Assembly: GCA_015272205.1 (NCBI GenBank)
Contig: JACYMB010000334.1
Span: forward strand, 1-35,300
Direction: 5' to 3'
Source: Synechococcales cyanobacterium T60_A2020_003
Lineage (GTDB): Bacteria; Cyanobacteriota; Cyanobacteriia; RECH01
Length of the DNA stretch: 35,300 bases
Shown: positions 9,954-29,110 of the stretch, piece by piece
How the letters are laid out: the number at the start of each line of letters is the position of its first letter
How positions within the stretch are numbered: the stretch's first letter is position 1
The notes under the pieces: generated by a model
Told to the model about the DNA's origin: nothing
What the model saw: only the letters and a program-made list of their open reading frames with translations
Databases searched by the model: none
Program-made: the position numbers and the translations under genes

Positions 9954-9983
9954 TTGATGTCCTTTGGGAAAGGGTGCTATAGT
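9954..9983 (+). promoter_or_regulatory. candidate sigma70-type promoter
   Basis: TTGATG at 9954-9959 and TATAGT at 9978-9983 are separated by 18 bases. They lie upstream of the perfect Shine-Dalgarno and small ORF at 10055. Both hexamers match the consensus at four or five positions. The assignment rests on sequence alone. Confidence 0.5.
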
Positions 9984-10039
9984 GACGTCAGTACTTCAGT
10001 AGTACTTGCTCCTTTTGAAATTGAGTCCGTTTAGGAATT

Positions 10040-10050
10040 AAGGAGGTGAT
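10040..10050 (+). promoter_or_regulatory. perfect extended Shine-Dalgarno
   Basis: AAGGAGGTGAT is complementary over its whole length to the 3' end of 16S rRNA. It ends four bases before an ATG (10055). Cyanobacterial genes rarely have so complete a site, so it marks the small ORF as deliberately and strongly translated, or as a regulated ribosome-loading site. Confidence 0.75.
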
Positions 10051-10054
10051 GCCC

Positions 10055-10126
10055 ATGCAAGATAGTAGTAAATGGATGGGTCATCAAGTTGAAGGAAGTC
10101 GGCTGTGCGCCGGAGCTGTTCTCTAG
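10055..10126 (+). CDS. 23-residue small ORF / possible leader peptide
   Basis: ATG at 10055 to TAG at 10124-10126 encodes 23 residues, beginning MQDSSKWMGHQVEG and ending in a short Ala/Val/Leu stretch. It has no membrane segment and no recognised homologue. The case for translation is the perfect Shine-Dalgarno four bases upstream, a promoter-like sequence further upstream and a strong terminator 112 bases downstream of the stop. The coding bases 10084-10093 are exactly complementary to 10216-10225, and part of them also to 10190-10196. Translation of the ORF could therefore choose between RNA structures. It could be a leader peptide, a small functional protein or the coding part of a dual-function RNA. 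No residue run (such as repeated aromatic or His codons) points to a classical amino-acid attenuator. Confidence 0.5.
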   Translation: MQDSSKWMGHQVEGSRLCAGAVL

Positions 10127-10291
10127 GGAATTGTCCTAGGTATTCAATATTTGGACGTTTCCAACATTTGGAGAGTATATCGGATGATTAACTTGAGTTC
10201 CTTCCGGCAGTTGATTTCAACTTGAAGACCCGCTAGACCGCTCCCACTTTTGGTAACTAAGGTTACTCCTAGTGGGAGCGGATAGTTTTTT
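10084..10291 (+). ncRNA. structured leader or small RNA segment ending in a terminator
   Basis: Bases 10084-10093 (TCAAGTTGAA) pair perfectly with 10216-10225 (TTCAACTTGA). The core TCAAGTT can instead pair with AACTTGA at 10190-10196. The downstream partner can also fold on itself (GTTGA/TCAAC, 10210-10221). These are mutually exclusive foldings placed before an intrinsic terminator and a pterin-enzyme gene. The unit could be an attenuator leader or an independent small RNA; no catalogued family was recognised. Confidence 0.4.
10238..10291 (+). terminator. strong rho-independent terminator before the pterin dehydratase
   Basis: A perfect 10-bp GC-rich stem, CCGCTCCCAC (10238-10247) with GTGGGAGCGG (10272-10281), encloses an inner GTAAC/GTTAC hairpin. 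Six T residues follow at 10286-10291. It ends 34 bases before the ATG of the dehydratase, so it either closes the small upstream unit or attenuates the downstream gene. Confidence 0.85.
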
Positions 10292-10325: not shown

Positions 10326-10619
10326 ATGGCCCAACGACTATCAGACACCGCCATCCAAGAGCAAATTCGCACAGTACCCGATTGGAGTTTGGAAGGCTCC
10401 ACCCTAACGCAGTCGTTTAAGTTTAAAGACTTTTTGGAAGCGATCGCCTTTGTGAACCGCTTGGTTGAGCCCGCTGAGGCCGCAGGGCATCATCCCGACA
10501 TCTCAATCTCCTACAACACCGTGGCGATCGCCCTCACAACCCATGATGCGGGTGGCTTAACCCAGCTTGATTTCAACTTGGCGAGCGTCATCTCTCAGAT
10601 TGCCAAATCTCTATCCTGA
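10326..10619 (+). CDS. pterin-4a-carbinolamine dehydratase
   Basis: 4a-hydroxytetrahydrobiopterin dehydratase (PCD/DCoH family, EC 4.2.1.96), which dehydrates the carbinolamine formed when a tetrahydropterin cofactor is oxidised, or acts on related pterins. The 97-residue product is the standard length. It carries the complete signature EAAGHHPDISISYNTVAIAL followed by THDAGGLTQLD, with the His-His pair, the later His and the Asp of the active site. The ATG at 10326 is chosen because the family begins MAQxLSDxxI. An in-frame GTG at 10272 lies inside the terminator stem and would give a non-family extension. No phenylalanine hydroxylase gene is nearby, so the physiological partner is unknown; in many bacteria PCD is thought to support molybdopterin or folate chemistry. 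Confidence 0.93.
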   Translation: MAQRLSDTAIQEQIRTVPDWSLEGSTLTQSFKFKDFLEAIAFVNRLVEPAEAAGHHPDISISYNTVAIALTTHDAGGLTQLDFNLASVISQIAKSLS

Positions 10620-10816: not shown

Positions 10817-12460
10817 ATGACTAAGATTTTTTGGAAATCTTTGCTAGTAGCTCCAGCATTCTTAGGTGCAGCCATGCTTGCGTCCTCTGGCGCGATCGCC
10901 GCAGAAGCCCAAGATGCTGTTGAGTCTTCAGTAGAATTTGTTCCCGTTGAATTGTCTGACGTTACATCAGTAGACGCAATTGTAGACGCTGAAGCGACCG
11001 TTGATGTAGCTCAAGCTGCTCCTGTTGACTCTTCGTCTTTGAACCAGGTTGTTCAGTACGCAAACGAGAGCAACGTCAACGCGATGGGTCAGGTAACCTC
11101 CATCGATCAGCTTTCTGATGTTCGTCCGACCGACTGGGCGTACCAAGCGCTGCAATCCTTGGTTGAGCGCTATGGCTGTATCGCAGGTTATCCCGATGGA
11201 ACCTACCGCGGTCAGCAAGCGATGACTCGTTTTGAGTTTGCGGCTGGTTTGAACGCTTGCTTAGATCGAATCAACGAAATCATCGCGGCTGGTCTGGCAG
11301 ACGTTGTTACGAAGGAAGAGTTGGCTGCTATCCAGCGCTTGCAAGAAGAATTTGCGGCTGAATTGGCAACCCTGCGTGGTCGTGTAGATGCTCTGGAAGC
11401 TCGTACCGATGAGCTAGAGGCCAATCAGTTCTCCACTACCACCAAGCTAAGCGGTACGGTACTGTTCAACGTTGCAGCTGAGTTCGGTGATGTTGCTAGC
11501 GACCAAGCTACCTTTGGATATCGCGTTCGTCAAAACTTTGACTCCAGCTTTACGGGTGACGATCGCTTGCGCGTTCGTCTCCAGGCTCGTGACATTGAAG
11601 ACTTCGCTGGCGATCCGGAAGGATTCTCCTACTCGGGTGACAGCAATGGCGATGTTGTTCTAGACGATTTGTTCTACGACTTCCCGCTGAGCAGCAACAT
11701 CGATGTTCGCATTGGTGCAAACAAGCTGGCGGTTGATGACATGGTTGCAAGCACCATCAGCCCTCTGGATAGCTCTGACTACGGTTCGCTGTCGAACTTC
11801 GGCCTCCCGCAGCAGTATGAACTCCTGGCAACAGGTGACGCTGGTGCAGGCTTAATCTTCCAGTTCAGTGATGCATTGAGCTTGGATGTAGGTTACACCG
11901 CGGGTACTGCATCTGATCCTAACCCTGGCTTTGGTCTGTTCAACGGTAGCTACAGCGCTATCGGTCAGTTGACCTATCTGGGTTCCAACTGGCAGTCTGC
12001 CCTCACCTATATCCACACTTACCTTTCCTCTGCGGATTTGGGTGCAACGACCAGCGGTGTTGTAGGTAACACCTTCGGCTTCCAGACCAACTTCATCTTC
12101 GGTGATATTGAAGTGGGTGGTGGTATTGCTTACGCTGAAGCAATTGAGCTGGCTACTGGCGATGCTGATGTATGGAGCTACCAGGGTACTCTGGCAATCA
12201 ACGACCTAGGTGGCGAAGGCAACAAGCTAATGCTGCTCGGTGGTGTTCTGCCCTACACCCGCGATGCTGGTCTGTCCGCATTTGATGGCGACTTCTCAAT
12301 CGATCCAGGTGGTGATACCTCGGTTCTGGTTGAACTGTCTTACTTATTCAAGGTCAACGATCGCATTTCGATCACCCCTGGTATCATCTGGGTTGAGGAT
12401 GCCATTGACAGCGGTGATGATGCGTTCATCGGTGCATTGCGTACCACCTTCCAGTTCTAA
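10817..12460 (+). CDS. SLH-domain outer-membrane porin (OprB-type, iron-uptake porin family)
   Basis: Major cyanobacterial outer-membrane porin of 547 residues. A signal peptide (1-29, ending near SGAIAA) is followed by a short acidic linker and one S-layer-homology domain at about 90-155 (LSDVRPTDWAYQALQSLVERYG, then GYPDGTYRG). The SLH domain ties the protein to peptidoglycan-linked polymer. A coiled-coil segment (EEFAAELATLRGRVDALEART) leads into the OprB beta barrel, which begins at SGTVLFNVAAEFGD and ends with the aromatic C-terminal residue (TTFQF) required for BAM insertion. Codons favour a highly expressed gene (frequent GCT, GGT and CGT). Members of this family in cyanobacteria have been linked to inorganic-ion and iron permeation. 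Start is the ATG at 10817, with TGAGGA upstream. Confidence 0.93.
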   Translation: MTKIFWKSLLVAPAFLGAAMLASSGAIAAEAQDAVESSVEFVPVELSDVTSVDAIVDAEATVDVAQAAPVDSSSLNQVVQYANESNVNAMGQVTSIDQLSDVRPTDWAYQALQSLVERYGCIAGYPDGTYRGQQAMTRFEFAAGLNACLDRINEIIAAGLADVVTKEELAAIQRLQEEFAAELATLRGRVDALEARTDELEANQFSTTTKLSGTVLFNVAAEFGDVASDQATFGYRVRQNFDSSFTGDDRLRVRLQARDIEDFAGDPEGFSYSGDSNGDVVLDDLFYDFPLSSNIDVRIGANKLAVDDMVASTISPLDSSDYGSLSNFGLPQQYELLATGDAGAGLIFQFSDALSLDVGYTAGTASDPNPGFGLFNGSYSAIGQLTYLGSNWQSALTYIHTYLSSADLGATTSGVVGNTFGFQTNFIFGDIEVGGGIAYAEAIELATGDADVWSYQGTLAINDLGGEGNKLMLLGGVLPYTRDAGLSAFDGDFSIDPGGDTSVLVELSYLFKVNDRISITPGIIWVEDAIDSGDDAFIGALRTTFQF

Positions 12461-27314: not shown

Positions 27315-27604
27315 TAACACCTCAAAGATCTCTGATTGCCGCTGAATCACTTCAACCCGCACGCCCTCACCACAAATCTGCTGTACTGCCGTCGCAAAGT
27401 TCTTACCGGAACAGCCCTGATCCACCCAAACCACCTCTAACAGAGCCAACTGATCCTGGGACTCCTCCAAAACCACGACTGCTCCTAATCGGTCTGAGGC
27501 ATTCGCTTCTGTCACGAGTACCCCAATCAGGAAACCTCTCGAATCTACGACGATATGCCGCTTACGCCCTTTAACCTTCTTGCCACCATCAAATCCGTAG
27601 ACCT

Positions 27605-27615
27605 CCCCCTTTTTT
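27605..27615 (-). other. candidate -1 frameshift site in the IS5 transposase
   Basis: On the minus strand the sequence reads GAA AAA AGG GGG in the first frame, an A6 run followed by G5. A -1 slip after AAA gives AAG GGG GAG GTC and continues the conserved transposase. Two-frame expression by -1 slippage is known for some IS5-family groups. A simple single-base loss is the alternative. Confidence 0.5.
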
Positions 27616-28246
27616 CCGTCATCTTGACGGATTGGGAATCAGCGATCGCTACAGTAGAATCCTCCTCTCGTCCTAACTGTGTCCGCAGGTTTGCTCGGAT
27701 CTGGTCGTGCATCTGTTGCCAGACTCCCTTGCGTTGCCATTTCCGAAAGTAGAAATACACGGTGCTGTACGGTGGTAGGTCGTGCGGTAGCATTTCCCAT
27801 TGGCACCCCTTCCGCTGCACGGAGAAGATACCGTTGAGAATTTCTCGGAAATCCACTTCAACGGGATGGCCAAATCCTTTGGGTTTCGGGATGAGCGGGC
27901 GTAACACCTCCCACTCAGAATCACTCAGGTCACTTGGATAGGACTTGCGGGTTGGGTTGGCAATGTCCGGAAGTTGAGTCATGGTTGGGGCGATATCTTG
28001 GATTTGCATCTAGCCTAAAACTGGTTTCAGTTCCCCCTAACCCTGCTTTGGTTCTTCTTTATAAATCAGTACTTACATCTGATGCCGCTAGCTTAGGTAA
28101 CATCATGACTCGCCATTGAATCTTGATCAGTGCGATCGATTGTTTCGTGCAGAAAGTCTAATATAGCTGTTGCCCGCTAGCTTAGGACATGGACATTTTA
28201 TGCAATCCCATCGCGCGTGTTTGCTTGTAGCTGTTGTAGTTTTCGC

Positions 28247-28317: not shown

Positions 28318-29028
28318 CTAAAAGAAGGCAGGACGATGGCGAATCAGGCTGAGAAACTCTTCACGAGTTTTTTGGTCGTCTTGAAAGACACCAACCATCG
28401 CACTGGTGACCGTCCATGATCCGGGCTTCTGGACTCCGCGCATCACCATACACATGTGCGTAGCCTCCATCACAACGGCAACGCCGCGAGGATCCAAAAC
28501 TTCCTGAATCGCTTCCGCAACTTGGCGGGTGAGTCGTTCCTGCACTTGCAAGCGACGGGAATACATTTCCACAATTCGCGCCACTTTGCTTAGCCCTACC
28601 ACCTTTTGATTCGGGATATAGGCCACGTGCGCCTTGCCCATAAATGGCAGCATGTGGTGTTCGCAAAGGCTGAAAAAGTCAATATCTCTGACCAAAACCA
28701 TCTCATTATGACCTTCATCAAAGATGGCACCGTTCACCAGCTTCTCCAGCGATTGGTTGTAGCCAGAGGTCAAGAATTGCATGGCTTCAGCAACCCGCTT
28801 TGGCGTCTTCAACAACCCTTCCCGTTCTGGATCTTCACCCACGCCTAACAAGATGGAGCGAACGGCATCCATCATGTCCTCTTTCGCGGTTTCAGGCACA
28901 GGATGAGGTTGGGAAACCTGTCCATGGGAGGTGCTGCGATCAGGACGAGAAGTAACTTGAGACGGCTTTTCCTTAGAGTCTGTGGATAGGGACATCGTAC
29001 CGTTTGTACCGTTTGAAGCAATAGTCAT
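28318..29028 (-). CDS. folE: GTP cyclohydrolase I
   Basis: First enzyme of folate and pterin synthesis, converting GTP to dihydroneopterin triphosphate. From the ATG at 29028 the product has 236 residues. A polar, Ser/Thr-rich N-terminal extension of about 50 residues precedes the catalytic domain. The zinc and active-site residues are visible in [20 protein letters not shown] (Cys and His ligands), [20 protein letters not shown] (catalytic segment) and [16 protein letters not shown] (second Cys ligand). The family ends near FLSLIRH as here. An in-frame TTG at 29067 would add 13 residues; ATG is preferred. The gene lies 82 bases downstream of an SDR gene on the same strand and has its own terminator. 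Confidence 0.95.
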
Positions 29029-29110
29029 AGGTTGTACAGTGTTATTTCCTGTGATCGATTTGGACAAGGGGCGATCGTTCGCTCAGTTACGGAACCAAGC
29101 GGTGAGCAAG

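Follow-up and report, generated by a model that had tools for sequence, protein, structure and literature searches.

Is the short stretch of DNA directly upstream of a pterin-4a-carbinolamine dehydratase (PCD) gene a leader of that gene or a gene in its own right, and does it belong to a family that has already been described? The question arises at positions 9974-10291 of the window, by which is meant the whole stretch of 35,300 nucleotides that was analysed. Here a single unit on the + strand comprises an extended -10 promoter, which is conserved, a full-length Shine-Dalgarno (SD), a 23-codon ORF, a rod in which the ORF pairs with a 3' arm and a terminator. A preliminary description of this DNA had named the elements of the unit and the sequence agrees with it on the position of every one, down to the 34 bases that lie between the end of the terminator and the start of PCD at 10326. 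The answer argued for below, which is regarded as rather probable, is that the unit is a free-standing gene of the ncl0160 family with its own promoter and terminator, encoding a 23-residue peptide whose start codon would be released by formation of the rod.

The full RNA folds far better than its shuffles (z = -6.1) and the unit is present in a single copy in the 4.0 Mb genome from which the window comes, which rules out a repeat or mobile element. An origin in a virus was ruled out as well, as the pattern described below had no match in viral contigs. No Rfam 15 family matched the window at the gathering score, with only chance matches at E values up to 10, and a search for tRNA and tmRNA genes returned none.

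The extended -10 promoter (GTGCTATAGT, 9974-9983) includes a TATAGT hexamer at 9978-9983 and follows a consensus, TGTGYTAnnnT, derived from the upstream regions of homologues. The core TGTGYTA was found in 107 of 150 diverse upstream regions as against 3.1 in shuffles, mostly at -82 to -75 from the SD, and across 100 aligned promoters the last T of the -10 hexamer was invariant, although it had not been a criterion for selection. The sigma70-like promoter proposed earlier is upheld in its extended -10 element, whereas the -35-like TTGATG (9954-9959) is not conserved. Counting from the -10 hexamer, transcription would start at about 9990, where minimum-energy folds predict a small leader hairpin at the 5' end (9990-10006), and the transcript, running from its own extended -10 promoter to its own terminator, would be about 300 nt long. 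A motif resembling ACCGTTTAGG at 10027-10036, a few bases 5' of the SD, is kept in most homologues and has no evident partner.

Attempts to trace the unit in other genomes began from DNA similarity, which located it in 45 of 59 genomes, a count that includes the genome of the window. A scan of about 85,000 species with a sequence pattern added at least 116 further loci (L031-L146), cyanobacterial among the matches listed, which include heterocystous and non-heterocystous genera such as Nostoc, Microcoleus, Thermosynechococcus and Acaryochloris. A caveat that must be applied to these loci is that the pattern fixes the SD, the start codon and the first codons, so that these bases look conserved in L031-L146 partly by construction; for this reason the main claims on conservation of the ORF were drawn from loci retrieved through DNA similarity or a covariance model. 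That model (R1), itself trained mostly on pattern loci, found one copy each in 131 of 386 genomes of the phylum, a sample that includes marine and non-photosynthetic groups, and the 131 include a handful of weak-scoring marine Synechococcus-like genomes, a chance match of 50 bases and three genomes that belong to a different class. The 50-base match (L183) lies around the SD. Two of the matches in the other class (L184 and L185), confined to the surroundings of the SD and start codon, were also judged to be chance, as was the third (L186, 1058-1237), a near-perfect inverted repeat that is likely to be an IS or MITE.

The rod spans 10078-10231 and pairs the ORF with the 3' arm in four segments: GGGTC (10078-10082) with GACCC (10227-10231), TCAAGTTGAA (10084-10093) with its exact reverse complement TTCAACTTGA (10216-10225), GTCGGCT (10098-10104) with AGTTGAT (10209-10215) and GCCGGAG (10109-10115) with TTCCGGC (10202-10208). 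The apical region of the rod (10127-10201) is variable, 22 to 70 in length in alignment A1 and of low identity. Adjacent to the rod and compatible with it stands an intrinsic terminator at 10233-10291, CTAGACCGCTCCCACT ... AGTGGGAGCGGATAG-TTTTTT, with its stem at 10233-10285 and its T run at 10286-10291. In a loose alignment an automatic consensus fold was almost without structure, which was resolved by a cleaner, diverse alignment with a named structure. In the latter, 43 diverse sequences gave 42 pairs for rod and terminator together, with 94.5% of cells paired and changes on both sides in 20 of the 42 pairs (154 such cells); none of 500 shuffles reached these values and the signal collapsed when the structure was slid by one column. 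The exact pairing of 10084-10093 with 10216-10225 that the preliminary description had singled out is the best-supported part of the rod, with G-C, A-U, C-G and U-A alternatives and, in L029, GGGTTATTTGGTTGAC paired with GTCAATTGAATAATCC. In addition, an ORF arm tends to find a better partner in the 3' arm of its own species than in the arms of others (mean z -1.66, n = 72), the own arm being among the best 5% of partners in 36 of the 72. The terminator hairpin has a z of -5.8 against shuffles, with 99.1% of its cells paired and double changes in six pairs. Its base is nearly invariant (CTA/TAG and CCGC/GCGG), and the sequence itself, CTA[GC]ACCGC ... GCGGATAG, is held constant beyond the pairing, which exceeds the need of a plain terminator and may perhaps reflect contact with a protein or an RNA.

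The SD (AAGGAGGTGAT, 10040-10050) is kept in the loci found by DNA similarity, and the 4.0 Mb genome of the window contains no more than three instances of AGGAGGTGATN{1,9}ATG. Behind it the ORF (MQDSSKWMGHQVEGSRLCAGAVL) runs from ATG at 10055 to a TAG stop at 10126. Among the 67 loci that the pattern had not selected, 64 have exactly 23 codons and the remainder 24 to 27, in every case behind an SD. The persistence of ORF, SD and pairing in relatives is the opposite of the outcome, loss of all three, that had been named as counting against the unit.

Structure of this strength raises the possibility that the product is a trans-acting structured sRNA whose ORF has no role of its own; RNA or protein would then bind at the SD-like segment, the GAUAGUAGUAAA loop and the bulges. 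The covariation would fit such an RNA, as would the extreme nucleotide conservation of AGTAGTAAA, silent positions included, although this is partly a product of how the pattern was built. It is also the case that codon 8 is always NNG and codon 12 always NNT, so that several codons, these two among them, look constrained by the RNA rather than by the protein. The ORF, moreover, is cut to 17 codons in three lineages that retain the rod: Thermosynechococcus-like genomes, an S. elongatus-like genome and a marine group (L035, L083, L187, L188 and L177-L182), all without the last six residues. In L187 a TGA replaces the usual Cys codon 18, and AGTVL-stop can be read 3' of it.

The behaviour of the reading frame makes an incidental ORF unlikely. 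Codon 24 is a stop in 126 of 129 loci and all three stops are used (TAA in 72, TAG in 51, TGA in three). The in-frame coding score of loci not chosen by the pattern was reached by four of 400 column shuffles, a signal of moderate strength in a score that ignores relatedness among the loci, whereas frames +1 and +2 scored negatively, below their own shuffles; the larger set of loci behaved similarly. In codons 16-24 most of the variation falls on third positions, insertions and deletions in the loop comprise whole codons (L030, L038, L092 and L136) and one locus, L194, preserves S-S-G-A-I-L-stop despite numerous base changes. There is, then, a moderate case from sequence comparison that the ORF is under coding constraint. 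A 23-residue peptide would be made from it.

The marine loci (L177-L182) deserve separate mention. They carry AGGAGGAGGTG[TC]CC[AG]TG followed by the 17-codon ORF (for example MISSCLTQGLLIAENAG) and retain both GGGTC/GACCC (GGCCC in L179) and a hairpin that resembles a terminator. From G9 onwards their residues align with GLLI/GLLV of freshwater members. In L177 and L180 an SLH/OprB porin lies downstream, as it does in freshwater species. On these resemblances L177-L182 are taken as true, if divergent, homologues.

The position of the terminator immediately 5' of PCD (10326-10619; Pfam PF01329, E 3e-31) speaks for a leader, one that would control transcription into PCD, or into the SLH/OprB porin beyond it (10817-12460; Pfam PF04966 and PF00395), through the position of the ribosome on the ORF. 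Both neighbours lie outside the unit. The usual order is psbD, unit, PCD and porin, all co-directional, and PCD, the porin or both follow the unit in the same direction in many loci, the porin even in marine-type L177 and L180. Among 146 loci psbD was found upstream in at least 81, PCD downstream in at least 78 and the porin downstream in at least 83, which makes the porin the most widely kept downstream neighbour; these are minimum counts, as many contigs break off within psbD or have short flanks. Many of the draft contigs in L031-L146 stop a few hundred bases upstream of the unit, inside psbD, probably because multicopy psbD breaks assemblies. In the window a nucleoside transporter stands in place of psbD. 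Elsewhere in the window, on inspection of the sequence, an ORF at 28318-29067 resembles GTP cyclohydrolase I (folE), an enzyme of the pterin pathway, about 18 kb from PCD, and another at 27545-28009 resembles a fragment of an IS transposase.

Such a leader is nevertheless improbable. PCD begins anywhere from tens of bases to over 1 kb away (+1418 in L031), it is missing from many loci and in three of them (L012, L013 and L024) the terminator is succeeded by a convergent ORF, all of which argues that the unit is not a leader of PCD. No one co-directional gene is conserved downstream as an attenuator would have it, since both the identity and the distance of the neighbour vary, and the homologues yielded no conserved alternative pairing that could open the terminator. 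The preliminary description had suggested that ribosome position selects between foldings and readthrough into PCD, with AACTTGA at 10190-10196 competing for the partner of the ORF. That heptamer is present at its position, but it belongs to the variable apex of the rod and homologues do not conserve it, and the suggestion does not survive the comparison. Its fallback, an independent small-protein gene or a dual-function RNA, is consistent with the evidence. Comparison of loci supports a unit that would be transcribed independently rather than as a leader.

Within this free-standing gene the fold at the start codon appears to depend on how much of the RNA has been made. In the minimum-energy fold of the 5' part alone, GATGCCCAT (10048-10056), which covers the first two bases of the start codon, pairs with ATGGGTCATC (10076-10085) in a hairpin at 10048-10085; with the 3' arm included, the same GGG in codons 8-9 is predicted to pair downstream instead. 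In 72 diverse homologues the start hairpin was predicted in 60 of the truncated RNAs (P>0.5) and the rod in 61 of the complete ones, with both states in 53, and the mean predicted openness of the start codon rose from 0.18 (truncated) to 0.45 (complete). The CCC just 5' of the start codon is conserved, yet it lies outside both ORF and rod, and a partner for it is therefore to be expected. The start hairpin showed no covariation in alignment A1, as it is nearly invariant. It is weakened in L021, L195 and L196. In L026, however, CTC, GAG and GACTC replace CCC, GGG and GACCC, so that both pairings are preserved; this is the one clear three-way change behind the hairpin. A two-state switch at the start codon is plausible as a purely thermodynamic prediction.

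If the predicted folds are followed, GGG of codons 8-9 would pair in the nascent RNA with the CCC just 5' of the start codon and mask the start. Once the 3' arm had been made, the same GGG and the codons after it would join that arm in the long rod, freeing the SD, the start codon and the first eight codons for the ribosome, which would then have to unzip the rod to arrive at the stop codon. Translation would in this way wait for the complete transcript and could be tuned by whatever opens or cleaves the rod, and masking of the start codon would be a regulatory step. The broadest version of the proposal, that of a phylum-wide mRNA switch in which a very short ORF regulates itself, its GGG first masking and then opening the start so that only finished transcripts yield a peptide dating from the common ancestor of marine and freshwater cyanobacteria, is possible but doubtful and is offered only tentatively.

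A fold that closes over a start codon is also known from type I toxins of the Hok and AapA kind, whose mRNAs are kept silent by folding until they are processed. By analogy, the unit might be an mRNA for a toxin-like peptide, and the small ORF, the stable long-range pairing of 5' and 3' regions and the hairpin over the start codon at the nascent stage would all suit it. The full-length fold, however, is predicted to open the start codon instead of closing it, the peptide is no obvious membrane-spanning toxin, there is one copy per genome with conservation throughout the phylum, and no antisense RNA is known, all of which makes a toxin very improbable. The small-protein gene with a rod-released start codon remains the preferred reading; of its parts, the conserved unit, the rod, a moderate coding signal, the promoter and the terminator are established by comparison of sequences.

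Few small RNAs of cyanobacteria are conserved as widely as this one, yet it has no match in Rfam. With a structure backed by covariation, a covariance model, a promoter and a psbD/PCD/porin neighbourhood in hand, a function of the peptide can be tested directly against a function of the RNA. Were the switch true, it would show in compact form how a coding sequence can also determine when it is translated.

Several known systems invite comparison. Ribosome-mediated leader-peptide attenuators of the TnaC and Trp type are built from the same parts, an SD, a short ORF, alternative pairings and a terminator, but no single downstream gene goes with the unit described here, which lacks a conserved antiterminator. 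Yfr1 and Yfr2 share its conservation across the phylum, but these functional RNAs of cyanobacteria have been described as regulatory sRNAs that encode no peptide; the RNA of the window differs in having an ORF and matches no Rfam family. NsiR6, HliR1, Norf1 and Norf4, some of them from former sRNAs, are cyanobacterial transcripts for small proteins confirmed by tagging, but their peptides are different and longer, and the part of that account drawn on here describes no rod between ORF and 3' arm (PMC5126843).

The closest likeness is to ncl0160, although the preliminary description had known of no described family with this layout. This sRNA was first seen in Synechocystis 6803 (Mitschke 2011, cited in Brenes-Alvarez 2016, PMC4734099). 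It is intergenic, with 83 homologues among 89 non-marine genomes in a survey that excluded the marine lineage, and carries behind an RBS a strongly conserved ORF of 23-25 aa that its authors considered likely to be translated; the main text of that paper gives neither a covariation analysis nor a function for it (PMC4734099). An ORF of 23-25 codons behind an RBS compares with one of mostly 23 codons behind an SD, stop usage of 47 TAA, 34 TAG and 2 TGA (PMC4734099) with 72, 51 and 3 in the present loci, and both families span heterocystous and non-heterocystous cyanobacteria. As size, RBS, stop usage and breadth match so closely, the element of the window was filed under ncl0160, to which, compared by description and not by the sequence of ncl0160, it almost certainly belongs; the literature searched held no other name for this RNA and mentioned ncl0160 in PMC4734099 only. 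The family itself is known, and what is new is the covariation of the rod, the coding signal, the promoter, the synteny, the 17-codon marine form and the predicted two-state fold.
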